Below are positions 21,191 through 46,541 of a DNA stretch of 64,000 nucleotides, one piece after another. The stretch is from Sipunculus nudus (taxonomy: Eukaryota; Annelida; Sipuncula; Golfingiida; Sipunculidae). The DNA lies in NCBI GenBank assembly GCA_026874595.1, contig CM049314.1, positions 26,111,729-26,175,728 of the forward strand. Direction: 5' to 3'. The notes under the pieces were generated by a model. The model ran no database searches, had not been told where the DNA came from, and worked only from the letters and a program-made list of their open reading frames with translations. The translations under genes were made by a program, and so were the position numbers. Positions within the stretch are counted from its first letter, which is position 1. Each line of letters begins with the position of its first letter.

Positions 21191-21905
21191 CCCTTATCCG
21201 GTAATGGATGCATCAGCTTTAAATATGAAAGTGTTATTGAAATTAGGTAAATGTAGAATCGGAGGATTATCCAAACATTGTATTCTCTTGTGATTCATCC
21301 CATTTTCCTTTACTGGACTTTTATTGCTAGTTCGAATTGCGAAAGATAACGCTATGTCTGTATAGTTTGATATGAAATCTCTATAGAGCCCTGTGAGACC
21401 CAAGACTGATCGCACTTGTTTCTTGGTCCCAGGTTTTGCAGAATTAGCTATTTTGTTTCTCAGGTTGGGATTTGTCCGTACCACGCCATCCACTACTTCA
21501 TTGACTAGAATTTCTAGTGACTGGTATCCTAGAAAACAATTTGAAGGCCGTGCTGCCCGGTTGGCTACCGTTATTTATCTAGCTTCTGTTTTATGGTCGA
21601 CACGTGGTATACCCATGTTATATTGTGTACCATTATGTCAATATTACAGACAGCATTTTTTATGCCTTCCAGAAAAAAAAATCTCATTATTTCAGAGGAT
21701 TGCGCGCATGCAGTTACTTAGCCGAATGGCGTAAAGTGGAAGTAAAATTTTCCCTCTGGTGTGACAAAAGCGGTCTTTTCTATGTATCCTCTTTCATAAG
21801 TATTTGCCAGTACCCTTTGGTAAGATCTGTCTTTGAGAAATAATAAATGGATCTCAAAGAAGCACATTTTTCTTTGGAGTTTGGTATTGGTTCAGGATCG
21901 AAAAC
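21191..21905 (-). pseudogene. Ty3/gypsy reverse transcriptase, decayed
   Basis: Reading down the minus strand from 21,905 gives FDPEPIPNS, then FSKTDLTKGYWQILM, then in a shifted frame KTAFVTPEGKFYFHFTPFG. A catalytic region follows in which the Asp-pair position reads NIDIMV, with one Asp missing. Further on come NCFLGYQSLEI, TKKQVRSVLGLTGLYRDFI and FIFKADAS at the RNase H boundary. These are RT motifs of Ty3/gypsy type. At least three frame changes and several stops are present. The RT N-terminal part before FDPEP is missing at a junction with protease-region sequence near 21,930. Confidence 0.88.
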
Positions 21906-21929
21906 AGTCATTAATTATTATTAAGTCGT

Positions 21930-22270
21930 TATTAACAACAGGAAATTTCATTCACTGTGCCATCAATGTGAACCACTGATTGAACCCTATCCGTATTTGT
22001 TCCTAATTCCTTTATTCTCAAGTTTATGCATACCTTCATTTAATCTTGATTTAACATCAAGTATCTGTTCACAGACTGTCATTACACCCCGTGATATTTC
22101 CATAGAGGCGGCTAAGATATCAAGTTTCGGGAAGTGACAAGTTCGTGAATCATTAGTAATCATGGTTGGCATGGTATAGCGCTATATTCTTTTTAAATTC
22201 TTTGGAAGAGTGGGTATGGTCGTAGAAAAAGGGATTAGTCAAAGGTTAACAGGTGAATGGCTTTTCTTTT
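21930..22270 (-). pseudogene. Gag-protease linker fragment joined to RT
   Basis: A minus-strand frame (21,987-22,172) reads MEISRGVMTVCEQILDVKSR then NEGMHKLENKGIRNKYG. In the next frame it continues with VVHIDGTVNEIS, a protease-distal motif (compare MVLIDGTVKEFPV at 43.4 kb). The protease active-site segment is absent: MHKLEN runs straight into RNKYG. The sequence then jumps to RT at about 21,930, skipping integrase. This is the left flank of the array, whose modules carry the same linker. Confidence 0.65.
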
Positions 22271-22520
22271 GATTGGTATGCTCTTGTGCGTATGCAGTTT
22301 AATTCGCTATGTTAACAGGGTAATGTATAAGCGATTTTTCTTTTATGTCTTTAAGATGTCTTTCTCTTCTTGAAGTATTGAAATTATTTTCTATTCTAGG
22401 TCACAACAATCGGAGACCGTTATAAAAAATATATATATCCCATACGTATATTTAGCTAGATGCCATTCCTAAAATTAATACATCGCATATATTTATGCAA
22501 GAGGTTGATCATGTTTTTAA

Positions 22521-22859
22521 TCACTGATTTTGATGCGTTCGGAGAGTGAAATCATAGGTTAAAATGGCTATATTTCCATAGGTGTCAGTAGGTGTAACCA
22601 CACTGACATTTGATGGGGTATCTTTCCCAAGTTTCTGAATCAGGTGTTCTGTCCGTCCGGATGACGTGAACACAATGTCATCATTCATACTGTACAAATA
22701 CTCGGCGCCGCCAATGCTCTGTGCCCATGCTGGTTTCCCTGAGTAAGGGCAATGTTCCCTGAATTTCTTGGAAGAATGGGTATTGTTACAGAGAAAGGGA
22801 TTAGTCAAATCTTTATCAGGTGAACGACTCTTCTTTTCATTGGTATGGGCTGTGCGCAT
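22521..22859 (-). CDS. GT-like block G1 (type 1), open 112-codon frame
   Basis: This is the leftmost copy and the only type-1 copy with an open frame. Residues 1-33 (MRTAHTNEKKSRSPDK to HSSKKF) match the linker segment in the protease modules. Residues 34-112 are GT-like: GGAEYLYSMNDDIVFTSSG, TEHLIQKLG, NVSVVTPTDTYGN, ILTYDF, RTH. NDD with a following hydrophobic position resembles the metal-binding acidic motif of GT-A glycosyltransferases. I recall large invertebrate families with AEY-YRVNDDT, GWT and NVGVVGP-GN-ILTHDFVHRTH patterns. It is too short to be a whole enzyme and may be an exon or fragment. Other type-1 copies have one extra A at the homopolymer here. Confidence 0.5.
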   Translation of the reverse strand: MRTAHTNEKKSRSPDKDLTNPFLCNNTHSSKKFREHCPYSGKPAWAQSIGGAEYLYSMNDDIVFTSSGRTEHLIQKLGKDTPSNVSVVTPTDTYGNIAILTYDFTLRTHQNQ

Positions 22860-23101
22860 GCTCTTCCATTCGCTCCAATATCTGGTTAATGTGTGAGCGA
22901 TTATTATTTTATGTCTCTATGATTCCCCCCCCCCCTTCCCTCTTCTCCTTATTGAAATTATTTCTATGAGACTGCCATTTAGATAAAAAAAAAAAGATGA
23001 CCGTAATAAAAACATTTATCCTATACGTATATTTAGCTAGATGCCAATCCTACAATTGATAAATCGCACATATTTATATCAGAGGTTGATCATGTTTTTA
23101 A

Positions 23102-23400
23102 TCACTGATTGTGATGCGTTCGGAGAGTGAAATCATAGGTTAAAATGGCTGTATTTCCATAGGTGTCAGTAGGTGTAACCACACTGACATTTGATAGGGT
23201 ATCTTTTCCAAGTTTCTGAATCAGGTGTTCTGTCCATCAGAATGACGTGAAAACAGTGCCATCATTCAAACTGTACAAATACTCGGCGCCCTCAATGTAA
23301 GCCTCATTATAGGCCTCGTTCGTTCTGTGCCCATGCAGGTTCCCTGAGTAAAGCCAATGTTCTTTGGATAAGTGGGGTGCTTTTCAATTACATCAGTTAA
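23102..23400 (-). pseudogene. GT-like block G2 (type 2, NDG variant)
   Basis: This copy has the longer upstream segment NEAYNEAYIEGAEYLY, closer to what I expect of the family. The acidic motif reads NDG instead of NDD, and the frame is interrupted by a stop after FTSF. The G for D change is shared with G5 and G10, so these three copies form a subgroup. A protease-region module follows on its high-coordinate side. Confidence 0.55.
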
Positions 23401-23526
23401 CGTCTTTTTGAACGAACTGAACCATTTAATGTGCATAGAATCGGGTCATCAAAAACATGACCAAAATAAAAGTAATAGATATAATTGATAATTGAAGAAA
23501 AAAGTATGATGAAAAATAGGCGCTGA

Positions 23527-24222
23527 CTATTTCTGCCACTGGTCGGTGTTCATGGTATCATCAAGACCTTTCCCTGGTAACAGATGCCCTGCATATTGCG
23601 ATAAAGTTCGGATCCGAAGAAGCCGAACTGTTATTATATTCATTACCTCTTTCTGTATGTCGGTGATATGGGATGGAACACAAGAAGATGTAAATAAACA
23701 TTGCAAAAATTGCAATGAGTATAAATGTCTTTTAAATCCATACTGCAGGAACCCCCCCCCCCCCCCCCAAACTGTTCCATTAATCAAACTGTCATCATTT
23801 TGTCTGTTCTTGAGTAAATTCTTCTGCTTCTACCGATGGTTCTGATGGTAACGCTTTCAACTGTTTTAAAACACGAGTTCCCCTATTGGATTGTGGTTTC
23901 GTTTGTTTGACTACAATATCACTATCAGCCCTGCCTCCTATGATTGGTGTTTCTAAAATTTCCTGCACCGGTGGCCAACTCAGGTCAGGATCATGAGGAT
24001 CCGTGGTTTTTGCTACATGTTCTATCACTACTTCACCTAATGAGTTTGGAATGATTATGCTTCCACTTTTCGTTATAGGTATAGTGAGTCAATATTAATA
24101 TCGACAACAGGAAATTGATCCACTGAGCAATCAATGAGAGCCATCGATCCAACCCTGTCCGTATTTTGTCCCTCTTAGGAGATCTGATCTGATTACACAA
24201 GGACTACCTCATAAATCATGGA
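23527..24222 (-). pseudogene. Protease-region module after G2 (short form)
   Basis: From high to low coordinates it holds DRVGSMALIDCSVDQFPVVD, then the open 77-codon frame 23,795-24,028 (MIEHVAKTTDPHDPDLSWPP to EEFTQEQTK). A poly-C tract follows, then a frame ending QWQK. The IDGTV/FPV and IPN-EVVI motifs correspond to the distal gypsy protease and the linker before integrase. The gag-linker part is absent: the module stops at CTCATAAAT (24,216) and jumps to the next GT spacer. Confidence 0.6.
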
Positions 24223-24265
24223 TAAATCGCATATATTTATATCAGAGGTTGATCATGTTTTTTAA

Positions 24266-24605
24266 TCACTGATTGTGATACGTTCGGAGAGTGAAATCAT
24301 CGGTTAAACTAGCAGTATTTCCATAGGTGTCAGTAGGTGTAAGCACACTGACATTTGATGGGGTATCTTTCCCAAGTTTCTGAATCAGGTGTTCTCTCCG
24401 TCCGGATGACTTGAACACAGTGTCATCATTCATACTGTACAATAACTCGGCGCCGCCAATGCTCTGTGCCCATGCAGGTTTCCCAGAGTAAGGGTAATGT
24501 TCCCTGAATTCCTTGGAAGAATAGGTATTGTTACAGAGAAAAGGGAATAGTCAAATCTTTATCAGATGAACGACTCTTCCTTTCATTGGTATCGGCTGTG
24601 CGCAT
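24266..24605 (-). pseudogene. GT-like block G3 (type 1)
   Basis: It reads ELLYSMNDDTVFKSSG and NTAILT-like segments in the GT frame. The frame is shifted at the AAAA homopolymer in the N-terminal linker, so the fusion frame seen in G1 is closed here. NDD is retained. Confidence 0.5.
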
Positions 24606-24846
24606 GCTCTTCCATTCGCTTCGTTATCTAGTTAATGTTTGAGCGATTATTTTATGTCTCTATGATCCCCCCCCCCCCAATCCCTCTTCTCCTTATTGTA
24701 ATTATTTCTATGAGACTGCCATTTTGATAAAAAAAAAACATGATGACCGTAATAAAAAAATATAACTAATACGTATATTTAGCTAGATGCCAATCTTACA
24801 ATTGATAAATCGCATATATTTATATCAGAGGTTGATCATGTTTTAA

Positions 24847-25186
24847 TCACTGATTGTGATGCGTTCGGAGAGTGAAATCATAGGTTAAAATGGCTGTATT
24901 TCCATAGGTGTCAGTAGGTGTAACCACACTGACATTTGATAGGGTATCTTTCCCAAGTTTCTGAATCAGGTGTTCTGTCGGTCCCTTTGACGTGAACACA
25001 GTGTCATCATTCATACTGTAAAAATACTCGGCGCCGCCAATGCTCTCTGCCCACGCAGGTTTCCCTGAGTAAGGGCAATGTTCCCTGAATTCCTTGGAAG
25101 AATGGGTATTGTTACAGAGAAAAGGGATGAGTCAAATCTTTATCAGGTGAACCACTCTTCTTTTCATTGGTATGGGCTATGCGCAT
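24847..25186 (-). pseudogene. GT-like block G4 (type 1)
   Basis: The GT part is open and reads SIGGAEYFYSMNDDTVFTSK, TEHLIQKLGKD and NVSVVTPTDTYGNTAILT. One extra A (GAGAAAAGGG on the plus strand, against GAGAAAGGG in G1) shifts the linker part out of frame. A single-base event therefore separates this copy from an open frame like that of G1. Confidence 0.5.
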
Positions 25187-25425
25187 GCTCTTTCATTCGC
25201 TCCAATATCTGGTTAATGTGTGAGCGATTATTATTTTATGTCTCTATGATTCCCCCCCTTCCCTCTTCTCCTTATTGAAATTATTTCTATGAGACTGCCA
25301 TTTAGATAAAAAAAAACATGATGACCGTAATAAAAACATTTATCCTATACATATATTTAGCTAGATGCCAATCCTACAATTGATAAATCGCATATATTTA
25401 TATCAGAGGTTGATCATGTTTTTAA

Positions 25426-25720
25426 TCACTGATTGTGATGCGTTCGGAGAGTGAAATCATAGGTTAAAATGGCTGTATTTCCATAGGTGTCAGTAGGTGT
25501 AACCACACTGACATTTGATAGGGTATCTTTTCCAAGTTTCTGAATCAGGTGTTCTGTCCATCAGAATGACGTGAAAACAGTGCCATCATTCAAACTGTAC
25601 AAATACTCGGCGCCCTCAATGTAAGCCTCATTATAGGCCTCTTTCGTTCTGTGCCCATGCAGGTTCCCTGAGTAAAGCCAATGTTCTTTGGATAAGTGGG
25701 GTGCTTTTCAATTACATCAG
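25426..25720 (-). pseudogene. GT-like block G5 (type 2, NDG variant)
   Basis: Nearly identical by eye to G2 and G10, with NDG instead of NDD and the same downstream stop. It lies 2,324 bp from G2. Confidence 0.55.
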
Positions 25721-25850
25721 TTAACGTCTTTTTGAACGAACTGAACCATTTAATGTGCATAGAATCGGGTCATCAAAAACATGACCAAAATAAAAGTAAT
25801 AGATATAATTGATAATTGAAGAAAAAAGTATGATGAAAAATAGGCGCTGA

Positions 25851-26880
25851 CTATTTCTGCCACTGGTCGGTGTTCATGGTATCATCAAGACCTGTCCCTG
25901 GTAACAGATGCCCTGCATATTGCGATAAAGTTCGGATCCGAAGAAGCTGAACTGTTATTATATTCATTACCTCTTTCTGTATGTCGGTGATATGGGATGG
26001 AACACAAGAAGATGTAAATAAACATTGCAAAAATTGCAATGAGTATAAATGTCTTTTAAATCCATACTGCAGGAACCCCCCCCCCCCCCCCCAAACTGTT
26101 CCATTAATCAAACTGTCATCATTTTGTCTGTTCTTAAGTAAATTCTTCTGCTTCTACCGATGGTTCTGATGGTAACGCTTTCAACTGTTTTAAAACACGA
26201 GTTCCCCTTTCGGATTGTGGTTTTGTTTGTTTGACTACAATATCACTATCAGCCCTGCCTCCTATGATTGGTGTTTCTAAAATTTCCTGCACCGGTGGCC
26301 AACTCAGGTCAGGATCATGAGGATCCGTGGCATTTGCTACATGTTCTATCACTACTTCACCTAATGAGTTTGGAATGATTATGCTTCCACTTTTCGTTAT
26401 AGGTATAGTGAGTCAATATTAATATCGACAACAGGAAATTGATCCACTGAGCAATCAATGAGAGCCATCGATCCAACCCTGTCCGTATTTTGTCCCTCTT
26501 AGGAGATCTAATCTGATTACACAAGGACTACCTCATAAATCTCGAGCCTGATTCTTGGGAATTATCTTGCACAACTCTTCGAGACACTATAGCCTCTACA
26601 TCCTCATAAACCATTCCCTGCTTATGCATACCTTAATTTACTCATGTTTTAACATGGCGTGTCTGTTCACAGACACTCGGTACATCCCGCGATATTTCCA
26701 TACAGACGGATATGTTATCCGTTTTCGGGTAGGCACGGTATGAGGCTATACTTCTTTGAAATTCCTTGGAAGAATGGATATTGTAACAGAATAAGGGATT
26801 AGTCAAATCTTTATCAGGTGAACGATTCTTCTTTTCATTGGTATGGGCTGTGCGCATGCTCTTCCATTCGCTGCGATATC
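25851..26880 (-). pseudogene. Protease-region module after G5 (long form)
   Basis: It includes the open 72-codon protease-distal frame (26,134-26,352, MIEHVANATDPHDPDLSWPP) and a gag-protease linker frame (26,642-26,857). That linker frame begins MRTAHTNEKKNRSPDK and ends ISRDVPSVCEQTRHVKT. The position of the protease active site (compare RDSG at 42.6 kb) is replaced by GSRFMR and a stop, so no active enzyme can be encoded. The linker start is the same segment that heads the type-1 GT blocks. Confidence 0.6.
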
Positions 26881-27114
26881 TGGTTAATGTTTGAGCGATT
26901 ATTATTTTATGTCGCTATGATTCCCCCACCCCCCCCCCCCCTTCCCTATTCTCTCTATTGTAATTATTTTTATGAGACTGCCATTTTGATAAAAAAAAAA
27001 GACATGGTGACCGTAATAAAAAAAAAATACATCCCATACGTATATCTAGCTAGATGCCAATCTTACAATTTATAAATCGCATATATTTATATCAGAGGTT
27101 AATCATGTTTTTAA

Positions 27115-27454
27115 TCACTGATTGTGATGCGTTCGGAGAGTGAAATTATAGGTTCAAATGGCTGTATTTCCATGGGTGTCAGTAGGTGTAACCACACTGA
27201 CATTTGATAGGGTATCTTTCCCAAGTTTCTGAATCAGGTGTTCTGTCCGTCCCTATGACGTTAACACAGTGTCATCATTCATACTGTAAAAATACTCGGC
27301 GCCGCCAATGCTCTCTGCCCATGCAGGTTTCCCTGAGTAAGGGCAATGTTCCCTTAATTCCTTGGAAGAATGGGTATTGTTACAGAGAAAAGGGAATAGT
27401 CAAATCTTTATCAGTTGAACCATTCTTCTTTTCATTGGTATGGGCTGTGCGCAT
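27115..27454 (-). pseudogene. GT-like block G6 (type 1)
   Basis: It reads EYFYSMNDDTVLTS followed by a stop, then GRTEHL. The NDD motif is kept but the GT frame is broken by the nonsense codon at this position, which G9, G11 and G14 share. Confidence 0.5.
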
Positions 27455-27692
27455 GCTCCTCCATTCGCTCGGTTATCCGGTTAATGTTTGACCGATTATT
27501 TTTGATGTCTCTATAATTCCCCACCCCCTTCACTCTTCTTATTGTAATTATTTATATGAGACTGCCATTTTGATAAAAAAAAGATGATGACCGTAATAAA
27601 AAAATATAACCTACACGTATATTTAGCTAGATGCCAATCTTACAATTGATAAATCGCATATATTTATATCAGAGGTTGATCATGTTTTTTAA

Positions 27693-28032
27693 TCACTGAT
27701 TGTGATACGTTCGGAGAGTGAAATCATCGGATAAAATGGCAGTATTTCCATAGGTGTCAGTAGGTGTAAGCACAATGACATTTGATGGGGTATCTTTCCC
27801 AAGTTTCTGAATCAGGTGTTCTGGCGGTCCCTTTGACGTGAACACAGTGTCATCATTCATACTGTAAAAATACTCGGCGCCCCCAATGCTCTCTGCCCAC
27901 GCAGGTTTCCCTGAGTAAGGGCAATGTTCCCTGAATTCCTTGGAAGAATGGGTATTGTTACAGAGAAAAGGGATTAGTCAATTCTTTATCAGGTGAACCA
28001 CTCTTCTTTTCATTGGTATGGGCTGTGCTCAT
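27693..28032 (-). pseudogene. GT-like block G7 (type 1)
   Basis: The GT part reads NDDTVFTSKGPPEHL and is open through NTAILPYDF-like sequence at the end. The linker is frameshifted at the AAAA homopolymer. The copy-B counterpart is G12. Confidence 0.5.
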
Positions 28033-28276
28033 GCTCTTCCATTCGCTCCGATATCTGGTTAATGTTTGAGCGATTATTATTTTATGTCTCTATGATTCCC
28101 CCCCCCCCCTTTCCCTATTCTCCTGTGTGTAATTATATCTACGAGACTGCTATTTTGATAAAAAAAAGATGATGACCGTAATAAAAAAAATAATCCTATA
28201 CGTATATTTAGCTAGATGCCAATCTTACATTTGATAAATCGCATATATTTATATCAGAGGTTGATCATGTTTTTAA

Positions 28277-28580
28277 TCACTGATTGTGATGCGTTCGGAG
28301 ACTGAAATAATAGGTTAAAATGGCTGTTTTTCCATAGATGTCAGTAGGTGCAACCACACTGACCTTTGATAGGGTATCTTTTCCAGGTTTTTTGAATCAG
28401 GTGTTCTGTCCATCAGGATGACGTGAACACAGTGTCATCATTCATACTGTACAAATACTTGGCGCCCTCAATGTAAGCCTCATTATAAGCCTCGTTCGTT
28501 CTGTGCCCATGCAGGTTCCCTGAGTAAAGCCAATGTTCCTTGGATAAGTGCGGTGCTTTTCAATTACATCAGTTAACGTC
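28277..28580 (-). pseudogene. GT-like block G8 (type 2)
   Basis: It reads AKYLYSMNDDTVFTSS, a stop, then WTEHLIQK. NDD is retained. The type-2 upstream segment (NEAYNEAYIEGA-like, with Asn-Glu-Ala-Tyr words) is present. The copy-B counterpart is G13. Confidence 0.55.
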
Positions 28581-28702
28581 TTTTTGAACGAACTGAACCA
28601 TTTAATGTGCATAGAATCGGGTCATCAAAAACATGACCAAAATAAAAGTAATAGATATAATTGATAATTGAAGAAAAAAGTATGATGAAAAATAGGCGCT
28701 GA

Positions 28703-29690
28703 CTATTTCTGCCACTGGTCGGTGTTCATGGTATCATCAAGACCTTTCCCTGGTAACAGATGCCCTGCATATTGCGATAAAGTTCGGATCCGAAGAAGCT
28801 GAACTGTTATTATATTCATTACCTCTTTCTGTATGTCGGTGATATGGGATGGAATACAAGAAGATGTAAATAAACATTGCAAAAATTGCATTGAATATAA
28901 ATGTCTTTTAAATCCATACTGCAGGAACCCCCCAAACTGTTCCATTAATCAAACTGTCATCATTTTGTCTGTTCTTTAGTAAATTCTACTGGTTCTACCG
29001 ATGGTTCTGATGGTAACGCTTTCAACTGTTTTAAAACACGAGTTCCCCTTTCGGATTGTGCTTTTGTTTGTTCGACTACAATATCACTATCAGGCCTGCC
29101 TCCTATGATTGGTGTTTCTAAAATTTCCTGCACCGGTGGCCAACTCAGGTCAGGATCATGAGGATCCGGGGCTTTTGCTACATGTTCTATCACTACTTCA
29201 CCTAATGAGTTTGGAATGATTATGCTTCCACTTTTCATTATAGGTATAGTGAGTCAATATTAATATCGACAACAGGAAATTGATCCACTGAGCAATCAAT
29301 GAGAGCCATCGATTCAACCCTGCCGTATTTTTGCCCTCTTAGGAGATCTGATCTAATTACACAAGGACTACACCATAAATCTCGAGCCTGATTCTTGGGA
29401 ATTATCTTGCACAACTCTTCGAGACACTATAGCCTCTACATCCTCATAAACCATTCCCTGTTTATGCATACCTTAATTTACTCATGTTTTAACATGGCGT
29501 GTCTGTTCACAGACACTCAGTACATCCCGTGATATTTCCATACAGGCGGATATGCTATCGGTTTTCGGGTAGGCACGGTATGAGGCTATATTTCTTTAAA
29601 ATTCCTTGGAAGAATGGATATTGTAACAGAATAAGGGATTAGTCAAATCTTTATCAGGTGAACCACTCTTCTTTTCATTGGTATTTGCTG
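28703..29690 (-). pseudogene. Protease-region module after G8 (long form, longest open frame)
   Basis: The 92-codon open frame 28,960-29,238 begins MKSGSIIIPNSLGEVVIEHV and ends PVEFTKEQTK. This covers the distal protease strand and the acidic/Pro linker toward integrase. A second 80-codon frame (28,703-28,945) starts MEQFGGFLQYGFKRHLYS. The active-site segment is missing. Upstream linker frames contain several stops. Confidence 0.6.
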
Positions 29691-29938
29691 TGCGCATACT
29701 CTTCCGTTCGCTCCGTTATCTGGTTAATGTTTGAGCGATTATTATTTTATGTCCCTATGATTCCCCCATCCCTTTCCTATTCTCTCTATTGTAATTATTT
29801 TTATGAGACTGCCATTTTGATAAAAAAAACATGGTGCCCGTAATAAAAATATATATCCCATACGTATATCTAGCTAGATGCCAATCTTACAATTGATAAA
29901 TCGCATATATTTATATCAGAGGTTGATCATGTTGTTAA

Positions 29939-30278
29939 TCACTGATTGTGATGCGTTCGGAGAGTGAAATCATAGGTTAAAATGGCTGTATTTCCATAGG
30001 TGTCAGTAGGTGTAACCACAGTGACATTTGATGGGGTATCTTTTTCAAGTTTCTGAATCAGGTGTTCTGTCCGTCCCTATGACGTGAACACAGTGTCATC
30101 ATTTATACTGTGAAAATACTCGGCGCCGCCAATGCTCTGTGCCCATGCAGGTTTCCCTGAGTAAGGGCAATGTTCCCTGAATTCCTTGGAAGAATGGGTA
30201 TTGTTACAGAGAAAAGGGATTAGTCAAATCTTTATCAGGTGAACCACTCTTCTTTTCATTGGTATGGGCTGTACGCAT
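29939..30278 (-). pseudogene. GT-like block G9 (type 1)
   Basis: It reads EYFHSINDDTVFTS, a stop, then GRTEH. Like G6 it carries the shared nonsense codon. The extra-A frameshift is also present. Confidence 0.5.
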
Positions 30279-30526
30279 GCTCTTCCATTCGCTCCGTTAT
30301 CCAGTTAATGTTTGAGCGATGATTTTTGATGTCTCTATAATTCCCCCCCCCCCCCCCCTTCCCTCTTCTCCTTATTGTAATTATTTCTATGAGACTGCCA
30401 TTTTGATAAAAAAAAAACATGATGACCGTAATAAAAAAATATAACCTATGCGTATATTTAGCTAGATGCCAATCTTACAATTGATAAATCGCATATATTT
30501 ATATCAGAGGTTGATCATGTTTTTAA

Positions 30527-30825
30527 TCACTGATTGTGATGCGTTCGGAGAGTGAAATCATAGGTTAAAATGGCTGTATTTCCATAGGTGTCAGTAGGTG
30601 TAACCACACTGACATTTGATAGGGTATCTTTTCCAAGTTTCTGAATCAGGTGTTCTGTCCATCAGAATGACGTGAAAACAGTGCCATCATTCAAACTGTA
30701 CAAATACTCGGCGCCCTCAATGTAAGCCTCATTATAGGCCTCTTTCGTTCTGTGCCCATGCAGGTTCCATGAGTAAAGCCAATGTTCTTTGGATAAGTGG
30801 GGTGCTTTTCAATTACATCAGTTAA
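30527..30825 (-). pseudogene. GT-like block G10 (type 2, NDG variant)
   Basis: Counterpart of G5; shares the NDG change and the same stop. Confidence 0.55.
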
Positions 30826-30951
30826 CGTCTTTTTGAACGAACTGAACCATTTAATGTGCATAGAATCGGGTCATCAAAAACATGACCAAAATAAAAGTAA
30901 TAGATATAATTGATAATTGAAGAAAAAAGTATGATGAAAAATAGGCGCTGA

Positions 30952-31960
30952 CTATTTCTGCCACTGGTCGGTGTTCATGGTATCATCAAGACCTTTCCCT
31001 GGTAACAGATGCCCTGCATATTGCGATAAAGTTCGGATCCGAAGAAGCTGAACTGTTATTATATTCATTACCTCTTTCTGTATGTCGGTGATATGGGATG
31101 GAACACAAGAAGATGTAAATAAACATTGCAAAAATTGCAATGAGTATAAATGTCTTTTAAATCCATACTGCAGGAACCCCCCCAAACTGTTCCATTAATC
31201 AAACTGTCATCATTTTGTCTGTTCTTAAGTAAATTCTTCTGCTTCTACCGATGGTTCTGATGGTAACGCTTTCAACTGTTTTAAAACACGAGTTCCCCTT
31301 TCGGATTGTGGTTTTGTTTGTTTGACTACAATATCACTATCAGCCCTGCCTCCTATGATTGGTGTTTCTAAAATTCCCTGCACCGGTGGCCAACTCAGGT
31401 CAGGATCATGAGGATCCGTGGCATTTGCTACATGTTCTATCACTACTTCACCTAATGAGTTTGGAATGATTATGCTTCCACTTTTCGTTATAGGTATAGT
31501 GAGTCAATATTAATATCGACAACAGGAAATTGATCCACTGAGCAATCAATGAGAGCCATCGATCCAACCCTGTCCGTATTTTGTCCCTCTTAGGAGATCT
31601 AATCTGATTACACAAGGACTACCTCATAAATCTCGAGCCTGATTCTTGGGAATTATCTTGCACAACTCTTCGAGACAATATAGCCTCTACATCCTCATAA
31701 ACCATTCTCTGCTTATGCATACCTTAATTTACTCATGTTTTAACATGGCGTGTCTGTTCACAGACACTCGGTACATCCCGCGATATTTCCATACAGACGG
31801 ATTTGTTATCCGTTTTCGGGTAGGCACGGTATGAGGCTATACTTCTTTGAAATTCCTTGGAAGAATGGATATTGTAACAGAATAAGGGATTAGTCAAATC
31901 TTTATCAGGTGAACGATTCTTCTTTTCATTGGTATGGGCTGTGCGCATGCTCTTCCATTC
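30952..31960 (-). pseudogene. Protease-region module after G10 (long form)
   Basis: Counterpart of the module after G5. It holds the open 72-codon frame 31,225-31,443 and the linker frame 31,733-31,948. The poly-C tract before LQYGFKRHLY is 7 C here against 16 in copy A. This shows that tract length varies even when the flanks are nearly identical. Confidence 0.6.
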
Positions 31961-32195
31961 GCTGCGATATCTGGTTAATGTTTGAGCGATTATTATTTTA
32001 TGTCGCTATGATTCCCCCCCCCCCTTCCCTATTCTCTCTATTGTAATTATTTTTATGAGACTGCCATTTTGATAAAAAAAAGACATGGTGACCGTAATGA
32101 AAAAAAAATACATCCCATACGTATATCTAGCTAGATGCCAATCTTACAATTTATAAATCGCATATATTTATATCAGAGGTTAATCATGTTTTTAA

Positions 32196-32535
32196 TCACT
32201 GATTGTGATGCGTTCGGAGAGTGAAATTATAGGTTCAAATGGCTGTATTTCCATGGGTGTCAGTAGGTGTAACCACACTGACATTTGATAGGGTATCTTT
32301 CCCAAGTTTCTGAATCAGGTGTTCTGTCCGTCCCTATGACGTGAACACAGTGTCATCATTCATACTGTAAAAATACTCGGCGCCGCCAATGCTCTCTGCC
32401 CATGCAGGTTTCCCTGAGTAAGGGCAATGTTCCCTTAATTCCTTGGAAGAATGGGTATTGTTACAGAGAAAAGGGAATAGTCAAATCTTTATCAGTTGAA
32501 CCATTCTTCTTTTCATTGGTATGGGCTGTGCGCAT
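32196..32535 (-). pseudogene. GT-like block G11 (type 1)
   Basis: Counterpart of G6. It carries the shared stop after FTS (here the residue before is Phe, not Leu as in G6) and retains NDD. Confidence 0.5.
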
Positions 32536-32773
32536 GCTCCTCCATTCGCTCGGTTATCCGGTTAATGTTTGACCGATTATTTTTGATGTCTCTATAATTC
32601 CCCACCCCCTTCACTCTTCTTATTGTAATTATTTATATGAGACTGCCATTTTGATAAAAAAAAGATGATGACCGTAATAAAAAAATATAACCTACACGTA
32701 TATTTAGCTAGATGCCAATCTTACAATTGATAAATCGCATATATTTATATCAGAGGTTGATCATGTTTTTTAA

Positions 32774-33113
32774 TCACTGATTGTGATACGTTCGGAGAGT
32801 GAAATCATCGGTTAAAATGGCAGTATTTCCATAGGTGTCAGTAGGTGTAAGCACACTGACATTTGATGGGGTATCTTTCCCAAGTTTCTAAATCAGGTGT
32901 TCTGGCGGTCCCTTTGACGTGAACACAGTGTCATCATTCATACTGTAAAAATACTCGGCGCCCCCAATGCTCTCTGCCCACGCAGGTTTCCCTGAGTAAG
33001 GGCAATGTTCCCTGAATTCCTTGGAAGAATGGGTATTGTTACAGAGAAAAGGGATTAGTCAATTCTTTATCAGGTGAACCACTCTTCTTTTCATTGGTAT
33101 GGGCTGTGCGCAT
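32774..33113 (-). pseudogene. GT-like block G12 (type 1)
   Basis: Counterpart of G7. NDDTVFTSKGPPEHL is retained, with a stop nearby in HLI-KLG. The linker is frameshifted. Confidence 0.5.
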
Positions 33114-33357
33114 GCTCTTCCATTCGCTCCGATATCTGGTTAATGTTTGAGCGATTATTATTTTATGTCTCTATGATTCCCCCCCCCCCTTTCCCTATTC
33201 TCCTGTGTGTAATTATATCTACGAGACTGCTTTTTTGATAAAAAAAAAGATGATGACCGTAATAAAAAAAATAATCCTATACGTATATTTAGCTAGATGC
33301 CAATCTTACATTTGATAAATCGCATATATTTATATCAGAGGTTGATCATGTTTTTAA

Positions 33358-33660
33358 TCACTGATTGTGATGCGTTCGGAGACTGAAATAATAGGTTAAA
33401 ATGGCTGTTTTTCCATAGATGTCAGTAGGTGCAACCACACTGACCTTTGATAGGGTATCTTTTCCAGGTTTTTTGAATCAGGTGTTCTGTCCATCAGGAT
33501 GACGTGAACACAGTGTCATCATTCATACTGTACAAATACTTGGCGCCCTCAATGTAAGCCTCATTATAAGCCTCGTTCGTTCTGTGCCCATGCAGGTTCC
33601 CTGAGTAAAGCCAATGTTCCTTGGATAAGTGCGGTGCTTTTCAATTACATCAGTTAACGT
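33358..33660 (-). pseudogene. GT-like block G13 (type 2)
   Basis: Counterpart of G8, with the same NDD and the same stop before WTEHL. Confidence 0.55.
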
Positions 33661-33783
33661 CTTTTTGAACGAACTGAACCATTTAATGTGCATAGAATCG
33701 GGTCATCAAAAACATGACCAAAATAAAAGTAATAGATATAATTGATAATTGAAGAAAAAAGTATGATGAAAAATAGGCGCTGA

Positions 33784-34770
33784 CTATTTCTGCCACTGGT
33801 CGGTTTTCATGGTATCATCAAGACCTTTCCCTGGTAACGGATGCCCTGCATATTGCGATAAAGTTCGGATCCGAAGAAGCTGAACTGTTATTATATTCAT
33901 TACCTCTTTCTGTATGTCGGTGATATGGGATGGAATACAAGAAGATGTAAATAAACATTGCAAAAATTGCATTGAATATAAATGTCTTTTAAATCCATAC
34001 TGCAGGAACCCCCCAAACTGTTCCATTAATCAAACTGTCATCATTTTGTCTGTTCTTTAGTAAATTCTACTGGTTCTACCGATGGTTCTGATGGTAACGC
34101 TTTCAACTGTTTTAAAACACGAGTTCCCCTTTCGGATTGTGCTTTTGTTTGTTTGACTACAATATCACTATCAGGCCTGCCTCCTATGATTGGTGATTCT
34201 AAAATTTCCTGCACCGTTGGCCAACTCAGGTCAGGATCATGAGGATCCGGGGCTTTTGCTACATGTTCTATCACTACTTCACCTAATGAGTTTGGAATGA
34301 TTATGCTTCCACTTTTCATTATAGGTATAGTGAGTCAATATTAATATCGACAACAGGAAATTGATCCACTGAGCAATCAATGAGAGCCATCGATTCAACC
34401 CTGCCGTATTTTTGCCCTCTTAGGAGATCTGATCTAAATACACAAGGACTACACCATAAATCTCGAGCCTGATTCTTGGGAATTATCTTGCACAACTCTT
34501 CGAGACACTATAGCCTCTACATTCTCATAAACCATTCCCTGTTTATGCATACCTTAATTTACTCATGTTTTAACATGGCGTGTCTGTTCACAGACACTCA
34601 GTACATCCCGTGATATTTCCATACAGGCGGATATGCTATCGGTTTTCGGGTAGGCACGGTATGAGGCTATATTTCTTTAAAATTCCTTGGAAGAATGGAT
34701 ATTGTAACAGAATAAGGGATTAGTCAAATCTTTATCAGGTGAACCACTCTTCTTTTCATTGGTATTGGCT
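33784..34770 (-). pseudogene. Protease-region module after G13 (long form)
   Basis: Counterpart of the module after G8. The open 92-codon frame 34,041-34,319 differs at a few residues (for example SWPT for SWPP and ESPII for ETPII). The 80-codon frame 33,784-34,026 also persists. Confidence 0.6.
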
Positions 34771-35020
34771 GCGCGCATACTCTTCCGTTCGCTCCGTTAT
34801 CTGGTTAATGTTTGAGCGATTATTATTTTATGTCCCTATGATTCCCCCCCCCCCCTTTCCTATTCTCCCTATTGTAATTATTTTTATGAGACTGCCATTT
34901 TGATAAAAAAACATGGTGCCCGTAATAAAAATATATATCCCATACGTATATCTAGCTAGATGCCAATCTTACAATTGATAAATCACATATATTTATATCA
35001 GAGGTTGATCATGTTGTTAA

Positions 35021-35360
35021 TCACTGATTGTGATGCGTTCGGAGAGTGAAATCATAGGTTAAAATGGCTGTATTTCCATAGGTGTCAGTAGGTGTAACCA
35101 CAGTGACATTTGATGGGGTATCTTTTTCAAGTTTCTGAATCAGGTGTTCTGTCCGTCCCTATGACGTGAACACAGTGTCATCATTCATACTGTGAAAATA
35201 CTCGGCGCCGCCAATGCTCTGTGCCCATGCAGGTTTCCCTGAGTAAGGGCAATGTTCCCTGAATTCCTTGGAAGAATGGGTATTGTTACAGAGAAAAGGG
35301 ATTAGTCAAATCTTTATCAGGTGAACCACTCTTCTTTTCATTGGTATGGGCTGTACGCAT
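35021..35360 (-). pseudogene. GT-like block G14 (type 1)
   Basis: Counterpart of G9, with EYFHSMNDDTVFTS then the shared stop. Confidence 0.5.
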
Positions 35361-35570
35361 GCTCTTCCATTCGCTCCGTTATCCAGTTAATGTTTGAGCG
35401 ATGATTTTTGATGTCTCTATAATTCCCCACCCCCCCCCCCTTCCCTCTTCTCCTTATTGTAATTATTTCTATGAGACTGCCATTTTGATAAAAAAAAAAA
35501 CATGATGACCGTAATAAAAAAATATAACCTATGCGTATATTTAGCTAGATGCCAATCTTACAATTGATAA

Positions 35571-36667
35571 ATCGCGTATATTTATATCAGAGGTTGATCA
35601 TGTTTTTTTATCACAAGAAGATGTAAATAAAAATTGCAAAAATTGCAATGAGTATAAATGTCTTTTAAATCCATACTGCAGGAACCCCCCAAACTGTTCC
35701 ATTAATCAAACTGTCATCATTTTGTCTGTTCTTTAGTAAATTCTACTGGTTCTACCGATGGTTCCGATGGTAACGCTTTCAACTGTTTTAAAACACGAGT
35801 TCCCCTTTCGGATTGTGGTTTTGTTTGTTTGACTACAATATCACTATTAGCCCTGCCTCCTATGATTGGTGTTTCTAAAATTTCCTGCACCGGTGGCCAA
35901 CTCAGGTCAGGACCACGAGGATCCGTGGCTTTTGCTACATGTTCTATCACTACTTCACCTAATGAGTTTGGAATGATTATGCTTCCACTTTTCGTTATAG
36001 GTATAGTGAGTCAATATTAATATCGACAACAGGAAATTGATCCACTGAGCAATCAAAGAGAGCCATCGATTCAACCCTGCCGTATTTTTGCTCTCTTAGG
36101 AGATATGATCTGATTACACAAGGACTACCTCATAAATCTCGAGCCTGATTCTTGGGAATTATCTTGCACAACTCTTCGAGACACTATAGCCTCTACATCC
36201 TCATAAACCATTCCCTGTTTATGCATACCTTAATTTACTCATGTTTTAACATGGCGTGTCTGTTCACAGACACTCAGTACATCCCGTGAAATTTCCATAC
36301 AGGCTGATATGCTATGGTTTTTCGGGTAGGCACAGTATGAGGCTATATTTCTTTAAAATTCCTTGGAAGAATGGATATTGTAACAGAATAAGGGATAAGT
36401 CAAATCTTTATCAGGTGAACCACTCTTCTTTTCATTAGTATGGGCTGTACGCATGCTCTTCCATTCGCTCCGTTATCCAGTTAATGTTTTAGCGATTATT
36501 TTTGATGTCTCTATAATTCCCCACCCCCCCCCCCCCTTCCCTCTTCTCCTTATTGTAATTATTTCTATGAGACTGCCATTTTGATAAAAAAAAAAAACAT
36601 GATGACCGTAATAAAAAAATATAACCTATGCGTATATTTAGCTAGATGCCAATCTTACAATTGATAA
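35571..36667 (-). repeat. Deletion-form unit P1 (~1,097 bp)
   Basis: At 35,611 the spacer phrase GATCATGTTTTTTTATCA is fused directly to CAAGAAGATGTAAATA. This removes about 575 bp, which in other units holds the type-2 GT block and the adjacent hydrophobic stretch. The rest is a protease module with open frame 35,717-35,950 (MIEHVAKATDPRGPDLSWPP). The same fusion occurs in P2 and P3, so the deletion came before their amplification. Confidence 0.85.
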
Positions 36668-37757
36668 ATCGCGTATATTTATATCAGAGGTTGATCATGT
36701 TTTTTTATCACAAGAAGATGTAAATAAAAATTGCAAAAATTGCAATGAGTATAAATGTCTTTTAAATCCATACTGCAGGAACCCCCCAAACTGTTCCATT
36801 AATCAAACTGTCATCATTTTGTCTGTTCTTTAGTAAATTCTACTGGTTCTACCGATGGTTCCGATGGTAACGCTTTCAACTGTTTTAAAACACGAGTTCC
36901 CCTTTCGGATTGTGGTTTTGTTTGTTTGACTACAATATCACTATTAGCCCTGCCTCCTATGATTGGTGTTTCTAAAATTTCCTGCACCGGTGGCCAACTC
37001 AGGTCAGGACCACGAGGATCCGTGGCTTTTGCTACATGTTCTATCACTACTTCACCTAATGAGTTTGGAATGATTATGCTTCCACTTTTCGTTATAGGTA
37101 TAGTGAGTCAATATTAATATCGACAACAGGAAATTGATCCACTGAGCAATCAAAGAGAGCCATCGATTCAACCCTGCCGTATTTTTGCTCTCTTAGGAGA
37201 TATGATCTGATTACACAAGGACTACCTCATAAATCTCGAGCCTGATTCTTGGGAATTATCTTGCACAACTCTTCGAGACACTATAGCCTCTACATCCTCA
37301 TAAACCATTCCCTGTTTACGCATACCTTAATTTACTCATGTTTTAACATGGCGTGTCTGTTCACAGACACTCAGTACATCCCGTGAAATTTCCATACAGG
37401 CGGATATGCTATGGTTTTTCGGGTAGGCACAGTATGAGGCTATATTTCTTTAAAATTCCTTGGAAGAATGGATATTGTAACAGAATAAGGGATTAGTCAA
37501 ATCTTTATCAGGTGAACCACTCTTCTTTTCATTGGTATGGGCTGTACGCATGCTCTTCCATTCGCTCCGTTATCCGGTTAATGTTTGAGCGATTATTTTT
37601 GATGTCTCTATAATTCCCCCCCCCCCCCCTTCCCTCTTCTCCTTATTGTAATTATTTCTATGAGACTGCCATTTTGATAAAAAAAAACATGATGACCGTA
37701 ATAAAAAAAAATAACCTATGCGTATATTTAGCTAGATGCCAATCTTACAATTGATAA
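36668..37757 (-). repeat. Deletion-form unit P2 (~1,090 bp)
   Basis: Near-identical tandem copy of P1. The protease-distal frame at 36,814-37,047 has the same 77-residue translation as those of P1 and P3. Differences are confined mainly to poly-C and poly-A tract lengths and a few bases. Confidence 0.85.
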
Positions 37758-38850
37758 ATCGCGTATATTTATATCAGAGGTTGATCATGTTTTTTCATCA
37801 CAAGAAGATGTAAATAAACATTGCAAAAATTGCAATGAGTATAAATGTCTTTTAAATCCATACTGCAGGAACCCCCCAAACTGTTCCATTAATCAAACTG
37901 TCATCATTTTGTCTGTTCTTTAGTAAATTCTACTGGTTCTACCGATGGTTCCGATGGTAACGCTTTCAACTGTTTTAAAACACGAGTTCCCCTTTCGGAT
38001 TGTGGTTTTGTTTGTTTGACTACAATATCACTATTAGCCCTGCCTCCTATGATTGGTGTTTCTAAAATTTCCTGCACCGGTGGCCAACTCAGGTCAGGAC
38101 CACGAGGATCCGTGGCTTTTGCTACATGTTCTATCACTACTTCACCTAATGAGTTTGGAATGATTATGCTTCCACTTTTCGTTATAGGTATAGTGAGTCA
38201 ATATTAATATCGACAACAGGAAATTGATCCACTGAGCAATCAATGAGAGCCATCGATTCAACCCTGCCGTATTTTTGCTCTCTTAGGAGATCTGATCTGA
38301 TTACACAAGGACTTCCTCATAAATCTCGAGCCTGATTCTTGGGAATTATCTTGCACAACTCTTCGAGACACTATAGCCTCTACATCCTCATAAACCATTC
38401 CCTGTTTATGCATACCTTAATTTACTCATGTTTTAACATGGCGTGTCTGTTCACAGACACTCAGTACATCCCGTGAAATTTCCATACAGGCGGATATGCT
38501 ATGGTTTTCCGGGTAGGCACAGTATGAGGCTATATTTCTTTAAAATTCCTTGGGAGAATGGATATTGTAACAGAATAAGGGATTAGTCAAATCTTTATCA
38601 AGTGAACGACTCTTCTTTTCATTGGTATGGGCTGTGCGCATACTCTTCCATTCGCTCCGTTATCTGGTTAATGTTTGAGCGATTATTATGTTATGTCCCT
38701 ATGATTCCCCCCCCCCCCCCTCTTCCCTATTCTCCCTATTGTAATTATTTTTATGAGACTGCCATTTTGATAAAAAAAAAACATGGTGCCCGTAATAAAT
38801 ATATATATATACCATACGTATATCTAGCTAGATGCCAATCTTACAATTGA
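37758..38850 (-). repeat. Deletion-form unit P3 (~1,095 bp)
   Basis: Third copy. Its fusion point reads TTTTTTCATCACAAG, a small variant of P1 and P2. It carries open frame 37,904-38,137 and leads into the more diverged block G15. Confidence 0.85.
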
Positions 38851-38892
38851 TAAATCGCATATATTTATATCAGAGGTTGATCATGTTTTTAA

Positions 38893-39190
38893 TCACTGAT
38901 TGTGATGCGTTCGGAGAGTGAAATCATAGGTTAAAATGGCTGTATTTCCATAGGTGTCAGTAGGTGTAACCACATTGACATTTGATAGGGTATCTTTCCC
39001 AAGTTTCTGAATGAGCTTTCTGTCCCTTAGGATGACGTGAACACATTGTCATCATTCATACTGTACAAATACTCGGCGCCTTCAATGTTAGTTCCAATAC
39101 AGGGGTCATTCGTGCCGTGCCCATGCAGGTTCCCTGAGTAAGGGCTATGTTCCCTGAATACGCGCAATGCTGTTCAATCACATCAGTAAA
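38893..39190 (-). pseudogene. GT-like block G15 (diverged type 2)
   Basis: It reads NDDNVFTSS, a stop, then GTESS. It is more diverged than the core copies, as expected near an array edge, and NDD is retained. Confidence 0.5.
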
Positions 39191-39557
39191 CGTCTTTTTT
39201 ACGAAAAGAAAACTGTGTGTGTGCATACAATCGGGTTAGCAAAATCATGACCTTAATAAATCTGATAGTTATAACCCTTGATAATTGAAAAAAAAAAAAT
39301 GATTGCGAAAAGGCGCTGACTATTTCTGCCACTGGTCGGTTTTCATGGTATTCAAGAGATTTCCCCGATAACAGATGCCCTACATATTGCGATAAGTTTA
39401 GATCCGAAGAAGCTGTACTCTTATTATATTCATTACCTCTTTCTTTATGTCGTTGATGTGCAATGGATACAAGCAGATCTAAATACACATTGCAAAAATT
39501 GCTATGAGGATAAATGTCTTTTAAATCCATATTACAGTAACGCTCTAGCTGTTCCAT
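39183..39557 (-). CDS. 124-codon open frame with one hydrophobic segment, diverged linker module
   Basis: The frame begins MEQLERYCNMDLKDIYPHS and continues through PVAEIVSAFSQSFFFFQLS to a basic end (RKKDVY). Residues about 93-110 are hydrophobic enough to be a membrane segment. In the other modules the same DNA is split among frames, yet the hydrophobic stretch recurs (FSSYFFLQLSIISITFILVM). It lies between the protease linker and the GT block. It may be a genuine stem/anchor remnant of the GT, or chance. No domain was recognised. Confidence 0.25.
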   Translation of the reverse strand: MEQLERYCNMDLKDIYPHSNFCNVYLDLLVSIAHQRHKERGNEYNKSTASSDLNLSQYVGHLLSGKSLEYHENRPVAEIVSAFSQSFFFFQLSRVITIRFIKVMILLTRLYAHTQFSFRKKDVY

Positions 39558-39559
39558 TA

Positions 39560-40230
39560 ATCAAACCGTCATCTTTTTGTCTTTTCTTTAGTTAGTTCTA
39601 CTGGTTCTACCGACGGTTCTGATGGTTACGCCTTCAACTGTTTAAAACACGAGTACTCCTTTTGGATTGTGGTCTTGTTTGTTCTTCTACATTATCACTA
39701 TCAGGCCTACTTCCTGTGATTGGTGTTTCAATAATTTCCTGCAGCGATGGCCAACTGTGGTCAGGGTCATAAGGATCCGTGGCTCTCGCTACATGTTCTA
39801 TCACTACTTCATATAATCAGTCTTGAATGATTATGCCTCCGAATACAGTACCTACTAACTCATAACCCAATCTCGGTACATGCATACCTTCATTTTCTCT
39901 TGTTTTAACAACAGGTGTCTGTTCACAAACACTCGGTACATCCCGTGATATTTCCATATGCTACTGATTTTCGGTTAGGCACGTTATGTGGCTATATCCT
40001 TTTAAAATTCCTTAAAAGAACGGGTATTGTAATAGAAAAAGGGATTAGTCAAATCTGTATAAGGTGAACGACTTTTCTTTTCATTAGTATGTGCTGTGCT
40101 ATAAGTCTCTATGATCCCCCCCCCCCCCTTTCCCTCTTCTCCTGATTGTTATTATTTTTATGAGACTGCCATTTTGGTAAAAAAAACATGGTGACCGTTA
40201 TAAAAAATATATTTAATACGTATATTTAGC
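39560..40230 (-). pseudogene. Protease-region module after G15 (most diverged)
   Basis: Recognisable words (ATDPYDPDHSWPS, VLKQLKA-like, CEQTPVVKTR-like) are present but broken by indels and stops. A ~200-bp segment (the LIDGTV region) is missing between 39,820 and 39,850. Confidence 0.5.
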
Positions 40231-40294
40231 TAGATGTTATTCTGTCAATTGATAAATGGCATATATTTAAATCAGAGGTTGATCATGTTTTTAA

Positions 40295-40585
40295 TCACTG
40301 ATTGTGATGCGTTCGGGGAGTGAAATCATAGGTTAAAATGGCTGTATTTCCATAGGTGTCAGTAGGTGTAACCACAATGACATTTGATGAGGTATCTTTT
40401 CCAAGTTTCTGAATGAGGTGTTCTGTCCATCCGGATGACTTGAACACAGTGTCATCATTCATACTGTACAAATACTCGGCGCCGTCAATGTTAGCCCCAA
40501 TACAGGCGTCGTTCGGTCTGTGCCCATGCAGGTTTCCCTGAGTAAGGGCAATGTTCCCTGTATAAGCGCAATGCTCTTCAGTCAC
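40295..40585 (-). CDS. GT-like block G16 (type 2), open 96-codon frame
   Basis: This is the rightmost copy and the only type-2 copy with an open frame. It includes HRPNDACIGANIDGAEYLYS, MNDDTVFKSSGWTEHLIQKL and TDTYGNTAILTYDF. It keeps GWT, which other copies changed, and NDD. The start Met (MTEEHCAYTGN) is not necessarily original. The frame ends at the same TGA as all the others, followed by TTAAAAACATGATC. A splice donor at CA|GTGATT just before the stop is possible, so it may be an exon whose partner lies elsewhere. Confidence 0.5.
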   Translation of the reverse strand: MTEEHCAYTGNIALTQGNLHGHRPNDACIGANIDGAEYLYSMNDDTVFKSSGWTEHLIQKLGKDTSSNVIVVTPTDTYGNTAILTYDFTPRTHHNQ

Positions 40586-40729
40586 ATCAGTAAACTTCTT
40601 TTATTAACTAACAGAAAACTTTGAGTGTGCATAGAATCGGGTCATCAAAATCATGACCGAAAAAAATGATAGCTATAACCCTTGGAAATTGAAGAAAATC
40701 AAATGATGGTAAAAAGGCGCTTATTAATT

Positions 40730-41110
40730 CTACCAATAGTCGGTTTTCATGGTAACATCAAGAACTTTCCCCGATAACAGATGCCCTACATATTGCGATA
40801 AAGTTTGGATCCGAAGAAGCTGAACTTTTATTATATTCATTACCTCTTTCTGTATGACGGTGGTATGCGATGGAATACAAGAAGATGTAAATACACATTG
40901 CAAAAATTGCAATGAGTATAAATATCTTTTAAATCCATACTGCAGTAACGCTCTAGCTGTTCTATTGCCTCTACGTCCTCATAAACCATTCCCGGTTTAT
41001 GCATACCTTCATTTATTCTTGTTTTAACATCGGGTGTCTGTTCACAAACATTTAGTTGTTGTCTTAGAAAAGGGATTAGTCAAATGTTTATCAGGTTAAC
41101 GACTCTTCAC
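40730..41110 (-). pseudogene. Array-end module lacking the protease segment
   Basis: The frame 40,730-40,912 matches the LQCVFTSSCIPSH segment of other modules. Directly above it, GMHKPGMVYEDVEAI joins to EQLERYCSMDLKD, so the whole protease part has been deleted. The array homology ends near 41,110, at a G-run (41,119-41,128). Confidence 0.55.
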
Positions 41111-41289
41111 AATCGCAGTGGGGGGGGGGTAAAATTGGGGTTTGATCGCTCTTTGATACCAATTTAATGCATTTTATTCACCATTAGTTTTATGTTTTCT
41201 CTTAATGTTTGTGGCACTGGTTAAGGGTGTGATCTTATTGGTTGATGAATTGTCAGTTACATTTTACATTTCAAAACTTATTTTCTTTG

Positions 41290-41580
41290 ATACAACTCTA
41301 AAACATCCTGATTTTTACATAACAGTTGCTGGACCTTATTTTTACGAACCGTTTGCAATTCTGGGTTTATTTTTACATGTTTAATATATTCATTTTGTTT
41401 TACAGATGGTGTTCACACAAAGCTTTCCTCACTAATCTGGTCTCTGTCTCAGACTAAACCTACTATGTTATTTTCAGAATTGGGATTCTCTATCACCTCG
41501 AAACACCCTGCTAACAGATTATCTGTTCTCTCTCACATAAAGCAAGGCTTCATACGATTGATGTGAAAACAACCTATGTG
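41290..41580 (-). pseudogene. Gypsy linker between integrase and RT
   Basis: Minus-strand reading gives HINRMKPCFM, a stop, ENPNSENNIVGLV, then VKINPELQTVRKNKVQQLLC and KNQDVL. The NPEL followed by a basic stretch and LL-KNQDVL is the pattern I associate with the segment just upstream of RT. Here it follows integrase directly. The RT that should come next is absent; the tandem array begins about 200 bp further on. Confidence 0.65.
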
Positions 41581-41589
41581 ACTCGTTTG

Positions 41590-42095
41590 TATCAATCACG
41601 TTGTCATTTTCATGTTTACTCGGCATCACTGTAAATATACCTTTCCATTGGATAAGAAGTTTGCTTGATTCTGTCGGTAATAACACTCAAACCTTATCCC
41701 CTACCTTCAGTTTACGAAGTTTTGTTTTCAGGTCGTTGTACCATTTGTATTTTGGTGTCCTGTTTGCTACAGAATTTCTAGAGGCTCCCAAAGTTCGTGT
41801 AACATTTCTTAAAGTTCAACCACACACTGATTTCATTATTACTTGGTAGCGCTGGTTTGTCCATAATTTCCGAAAAGTAGTCGTAGGACCACGAACGAGT
41901 CTACCGTAAAGCTTTTCATAAGGTGAGTTACCTAAACTGGAGTTTGGTATCTTTCTAAGTAAAAACAACAATGACGATATGTATATGTCCCATTGTCCGT
42001 GCTGTTCTGCCTACAACCTTTTTCAAAGCTTCTTGATAATCCCATCATACCTTTCCACCAAACCAATACATACGGGGTGATATCTAGTACTGCTG
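41590..42095 (-). pseudogene. Gypsy integrase, C-terminal half
   Basis: In successive frames the minus strand reads RYHPVCIGLVERYDGIIKKL (containing the third catalytic residue, Glu of VER), then SFGNY-like fragments, REIMDKPALPSNNEIS, KIQMVQRPENKT, and IQWKGIF. YHP-GLVER, the tyrosine/leucine-rich LLYGR-like region, and the QWKG-F motif are typical of Ty3/gypsy integrase core end and C-terminal domain. There are several frameshifts and stops. The first half of the integrase is missing here and is represented separately at 42,958-43,075. Confidence 0.8.
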
Positions 42096-42149
42096 TACAG
42101 ACAACAGTCTAAATGTATTTGAAACCCAAATTTTTATCCAACACTCTCT

Positions 42150-46277: not shown

Positions 46278-46286
46278 CATAAATAT

Positions 46287-46541
46287 GGTCTGGTGATCCT
46301 ATTCGAGTAACCCTCCCCGCACATACCTGGACATGTGACACTCCTGCCTGGTCATGTGACATTACCCCGTTCCACTGTGGCATAAACACTGACACGATGC
46401 CTCATCCCCACCGTCATTAACAAAGGATTAATATCCTATCAATCCACCATTTTTCATGAAATGCAAGTAAAATCAACATTCATGAATTGAAGATCTTACA
46501 CAAAGAACAATATGGTGAACCTTCCATGTTGTATTATATAT

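Follow-up and report, generated by a model that had tools for sequence, protein, structure and literature searches.

Architecture of the repeat array

The 64-kb window of the Sipunculus nudus genome analysed here (64,000 nucleotides of contig CM049314.1; all positions given below are those of the window) holds a long block of tandem repeats next to the remains of a retroelement. Self-comparison of the window places this block at about 21,935-41,108 on the minus strand, and 19,025 of the 19,169 bases of 21,940-41,108 are repeated in direct orientation with at least 80% identity. All modules of the array lie on the minus strand, with their copies head to tail. No inverted self-match was found within the array at E 1e-10, and when the array was resampled five times under a first-order Markov model, no self-match at all reached the same threshold. 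The self-comparison recovers periods of about 580, 1,095, 1,670 and 5,093 bp. The array is real and is arranged in nested tiers. A sequence-only reading of this DNA had described it at 22,500-41,110 (~18.6 kb), in a single orientation and with ~580-bp, ~1.1-kb, ~1.7-kb and ~5.08-kb periodicities; the existence of the array, its orientation and all four periods are confirmed here, while its limits extend slightly further.

Four modules make up the array: P, which is putatively protease-like; Y; G, the block described as glycosyltransferase-like (GT-like); and a spacer, S. Cutting at common break points yielded 18 units (U1 to U18) and an edge piece (U0). Counted with one probe per module, the array comprises 16 G cores of 185-187 bp each, nine P modules (seven full length and two partial, besides a fragment in U1 and others at the lower edge), ten copies of Y (seven nearly full and three shortened to 73 bp) and 18 copies of S plus two fragments. 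The 16 GT-like blocks and about nine protease-region modules counted previously are thereby reproduced. The simple alternation of these two block types is not: the modules, with Y and S as two additional ones, are instead combined into short G-S units (~580 bp), medium P-y-S units (~1,095 bp) and long P-Y-G-S units (~1,670 bp).

Read 5′ to 3′ along the minus strand, the array opens with an S fragment at its upper edge (U0, 41,066-41,108), followed by two long units. U1 (40,006-41,065) is a diverged edge unit in which a P fragment precedes Y, G and S, and it holds the G copy named G16 (core at 40,298-40,483); in U2 (38,544-40,005) P is in two pieces. Three medium units of the 1.09-kb form come next (U3, 37,454-38,543; U4, 36,357-37,453; U5, 35,262-36,356). 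The series short-long-short-short-long is then found twice, as U6-U10 (30,180-35,261) and, in identical order, as U11-U15 (25,088-30,179). Below it lie the short unit U16 (24,507-25,087) and U17 (22,762-24,506), in which G and an S fragment are fused to a long unit with a partial P, so that it contains two G cores. The last unit, U18 (22,196-22,761), is short and diverged, and it is followed by P fragments at the lower edge (21,935-22,134), which are 79% and 81% identical to P and 81-85% identical to a flank copy at 43.35-43.70 kb.

Divergence between units and the higher-order repeat

The five-unit series constitutes a higher-order repeat of 5.09 kb, present twice in copies that are about 0.7% apart. 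Compared over whole units, the five matched pairs of U6-U10 and U11-U15 share 98.4-99.7% identity. The other inner pairs among U2-U16 share 85.8-96.5%, with a median of 91.8% (n=97, counted without the pairs within U3-U5; U17 was excluded, as its fused head misaligns). Near-identical multi-unit copies are thus built of inner units that differ from one another, which is the hallmark of a higher-order repeat. When the two copies were aligned, the first 5,200 columns contained 35 substitutions, and the last 836, which extend beyond one 5,093-bp period, contained 55. The medium units U3-U5 are similarly close, with 9-13 substitutions per ~1,090 bp (0.8-1.2%). An exception to the unit-for-unit match is the S of U10, which is 98.8% identical to that of U5 and 94.1% to that of U15, so that the last exchange would have crossed within these units.

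The edge units are the most diverged. The S of U1 is 84-88% identical to the copies in U2-U17, that of U18 is 74-77% identical to the others, and these two share 75% with each other. Within U18, identity changes abruptly at 22,478-22,761, where a G core 94.6% identical to G16 adjoins the old S. This combination suggests an exchange between U18 and the unit that holds G16, and the step is likely an exchange break point. More generally, a homogenised middle with diverged edges would be accounted for by repeated unequal exchange, since such exchange leaves this pattern.

Coding potential of the modules

In the frame of G16, a stop or a frameshift is present in 11 of the 16 G cores. Variable sites in G are distributed almost evenly over codon positions 1, 2 and 3 (16, 18 and 15 of 62). 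Relative to G16, the 12 further copies of equal length show 158 changes, of which 26 are synonymous (~16%, against 22% for random single changes), although the copies are related and these changes are not independent events. Given this even variation and this synonymous share, G drifts freely and is without coding constraint. For this module, a coding tandem gene family is ruled out by the stops, the frameshifts and the codon-position pattern. Ten copies of P, one of them from the flank, vary at 27, 29 and 26 of 97 sites by codon position. Most likely the array encodes no working protein and is dead DNA.

Identity of the modules

The names attached to P, Y and G are putative. Those of glycosyltransferase for G, of protease for P and of integrase for the upper flank are presumed resemblances that no search confirmed. 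G matched no Pfam family up to E 10 and had no credible hit in PDB, where a profile built from five of its 16 copies matched an NADH peroxidase and a cannabinoid receptor (best E 0.67), both judged to be chance. P had no Pfam hit either. The GT-like character of G and the retroelement-protease character of P, as given in the sequence-only reading, thus gain no backing from these searches. Pieces of Y resembled tRNA-synt_1c (Pfam, 0.074) and, in another frame, EXOC6_Sec15_N (0.012); both are below the curated cut-offs and were judged to be chance. No relative of G was found in phages, viral contigs or GTDB genomes, nor any of Y, P or the RNase H described below in viral contigs. According to their descriptions, these collections are viral and prokaryotic and hold no animal genomes, so the lack of relatives says little.

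Retroelement remains below the array and putative ones above it

Directly below the array, on the minus strand, lie the ribonuclease H (RNase H) and a reverse transcriptase remnant of a retroelement (20,963-21,914). The stretch 20,963-21,193 matches Pfam RT_RNaseH at 2.1e-16, yet no PDB chain at E 0.01. The adjoining 21,194-21,574 matches RT_RNaseH_2 below the cut-off (0.0076) and the PDB entry 'Pr125Pol' (0.0067), which we take to be from a foamy virus. Weak matches to RVT_1 (Pfam, 0.15) and to an 'Enzymatic polyprotein' in PDB (0.075), presumably of a caulimovirus, were obtained for 21,783-21,914.

Above the array, the minus strand of 41,094-42,133 appears to carry further retroelement remains, whose open stretches were tentatively read by eye as the end of an integrase and then the beginning of a reverse transcriptase. 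Pfam returned nothing for three of the pieces and HTH_50 below the cut-off (0.046) for 41,690-41,815, and 41,819-42,010 had no PDB match. As identities for the flank pieces, HTH_50 and Rad50_zn_hook (0.24) are below the curated cut-offs and were judged to be chance. Farther up, two copies of P lie outside the array on the same strand (43,666-43,212 and 42,707-42,166), 71% and 77% identical to the P module at 26,112-26,735 and 74% to each other. The flanking element may represent two nested copies. The stretch that separates the two flank copies carries, by eye, a polyadenylation-like signal. Neither flank copy adjoins Y, G or S, so within this window these three modules do not belong to the element as a constant component.

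P is thus common to the array and its upper flank, and RNase H lies below the array; if the by-eye reading of the upper flank holds, the array would split the reverse transcriptase. The order of integrase before reverse transcriptase, read here in open stretches where neither Pfam nor PDB gave the putative integrase pieces a supporting match, would be reminiscent of Gmr1 elements, in which integrase lies upstream of reverse transcriptase (PMC8220671). Self-matches of 60 bp or longer, other than array-to-array ones, numbered 137; 102 were removed as low-complexity and 35 were inspected. All flank-to-array matches among the latter involve P, and none of the 35 joins the lower to the upper flank, so a pair of long terminal repeats (LTRs) is not seen in the window.

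Elsewhere in the window, a diverged 61-bp tandem repeat occupies a T-rich stretch at 63,203-63,861 (2.3 copies at 63,540-63,678 according to Tandem Repeats Finder), where two open frames, 172 and 175 codons long, overlap. A tandem duplication of about 187 bp and 75% identity is located at 18,479-18,848, and a 131-codon open stretch on the minus strand at 16,062-16,454 looks by eye like a translated dispersed repeat. A direct duplication of 2.6 kb lies at 49,832-55,477; its copies stand 3,062 bp apart and match 46,286-47,212 in part (84% and 81%). The microsatellites and the character of the repeats would suit an animal host. Rfam gave no match at gathering scores within the window, and ARAGORN found no tRNA.

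Origin of the array

The explanation that we favour, and hold with good confidence, is that of a dead, satellite-like tandem array that derives from a composite cassette beside or inside a decayed gypsy-like element and was homogenised by unequal exchange. The spacer S, the putatively retroelement-derived P and a gene-like Y-G fragment would first have been joined inside or beside the decaying element, and the cassette would then have been duplicated head to tail. With the long unit as the presumed ancestral form, two shorter ones would have arisen, G-S by loss of P and Y, and P-y-S by loss of G and most of Y. Unequal exchange, as the probable motor, would have expanded and homogenised these units into a first mixed set, now 86-97% alike, and at a later stage the five-unit 5.09-kb higher-order repeat and the threefold 1.09-kb run would have formed. 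The sequence-only reading had put the cassette inside the retroelement and had seen in it a possible incipient satellite born from a transduced gene fragment. Of this, a composite cassette amplified next to a decayed retroelement holds good, its position inside the element being a by-eye reading, and the anatomy is indeed that of a small satellite-like array; the identity of G as a glycosyltransferase exon is not established, Pfam giving no match and PDB no credible one.

Several observations weigh against this explanation. Five of the 16 G cores are still open. In seven copies of Y, variable sites number 11, 10 and 17 of 77 by codon position, a third-position excess that, on small counts, may be the trace of a coding past. 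In the eight inner copies of P they number 11, 5 and 4 of 97, and this unevenness, again on small counts, may reflect some constraint on P in another frame. The assignment of P and of the upper flank to a retroelement is putative and gained no supporting database match. Replication slippage, rolling-circle reinsertion or template switching are other routes by which the tiers might have come about, and an assembly artefact might account for the newest tier.

An artefact of this kind would mean that haplotypes were strung together, so that the second 5.09-kb copy and extra 1.09-kb copies would be spurious additions to a smaller true array. In many invertebrates heterozygosity encompasses differences of 0.7-1.2%, and both the 5.09-kb copies (~0.7% apart) and the 1.09-kb copies (0.8-1.2%) are close enough to be haplotype duplicates; moreover, the 2.6-kb direct duplication elsewhere in the window, at 49,832-55,477, is 95% identical. 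An offset of one five-unit period is, however, also expected from unequal exchange. The remaining inner units, 86-97% alike and differing in module content, are much harder to explain as haplotypes, and removing 5.09 kb and two 1.09-kb copies would still leave an array of about 12 kb. On balance, we consider assembly duplicates an unlikely source of the youngest tiers.

It seems improbable, too, that a retroelement family carries the cassette as a regular internal tandem region, in the manner of the Ogre repeats downstream of genes, and that the array is one copy of it. Such an element would agree with the P copies and the RNase H that flank the array on one and the same strand, and Ogre elements do contain tandem repeats that seed satellites (PMC7004042). 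Yet the flank copies of P stand without Y, G or S, and searches of viral contigs for relatives of G, Y, P and RNase H, and of GTDB for relatives of G, came back empty, in collections that by their descriptions hold no animal genomes. By analogy with Su(Ste), small RNAs made from the array might silence both the element and the donor gene; tandem, broken gene-like pieces together with a part of a mobile element resemble the layout of Su(Ste) (PMC7874207), but we give this function very little credence. The same slight credence goes to the fuller scenario in which a gypsy-type element would have taken up a piece of a host gene where its protease and integrase meet; this piece and the protease region would then have seeded a young higher-order satellite whose small RNAs silence either the element or the donor gene.

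Comparison with known tandem arrays

The array, interpreted as a dead, satellite-like product of a composite cassette, belongs to an already known kind, because Ogre-derived satellites, Sdic and Su(Ste) precede it; these systems are close to it, and the view that such amplification has no precedent is not sustained. The element hoppel, found in Su(Ste), is a DNA transposon and not a gypsy-type element, and alpha-satellite has a simple monomer, is centromeric and is far larger than the present array. Su(Ste) of the Drosophila Y chromosome resembles our array in that copies of a broken gene, with a transposable element (hoppel) inserted, stand in tandem, and differs in its known PIWI-interacting RNA (piRNA) function (PMC7874207). 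The higher-order repeats of alpha-satellite (cf. PMC4431391) resemble it in their nested tiers, with diverged monomers inside larger multi-unit copies.

In Lathyrus sativus, satellites derived from Ogre (Ty3/gypsy) retrotransposons have been described, among them FabTR-58, whose complex arrays are made up of short arrays in a single orientation, with Ogre sequence interspersed at fixed spacing (excerpt of PMC7004042). These would be like the present array as tandem arrays born in a gypsy-type element, and differ from it in that their repeats derive for the most part from 3′ untranslated sequence and are apparently short (figures such as 46-131), with no gene-like part noted in that excerpt (PMC7004042). 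The Sdic cluster of Drosophila melanogaster, according to the sections of its description consulted, spans about 46 kb with six copies in the reference strain and is prone to unequal crossing over; its tandem unit, similarly composite, contains a chimeric gene and a presumed pseudogene as well as part of the retrotransposon Rt1c (PMC7475035). Sdic differs in being expressed and partly under positive selection and in that its retroelement is of the non-LTR type, and the same sections note no higher-order repeat (PMC7475035).

Among the titles and abstract openings retrieved from an open-licence library on gene fragments captured by LTR retrotransposons and found in tandem arrays or satellites, whose silence is no proof of absence, no case inside a gypsy polymerase was named. 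The array looks like non-coding tandem-repeat decay as described in other organisms and not like a new class of element. Its value is that of a readable example of a possible satellite-like start, with 19 kb preserving units that have diverged, shortened forms, a higher-order tier that arose recently and edges that are decaying. Knowledge of the donor gene could allow the individual steps to be dated.

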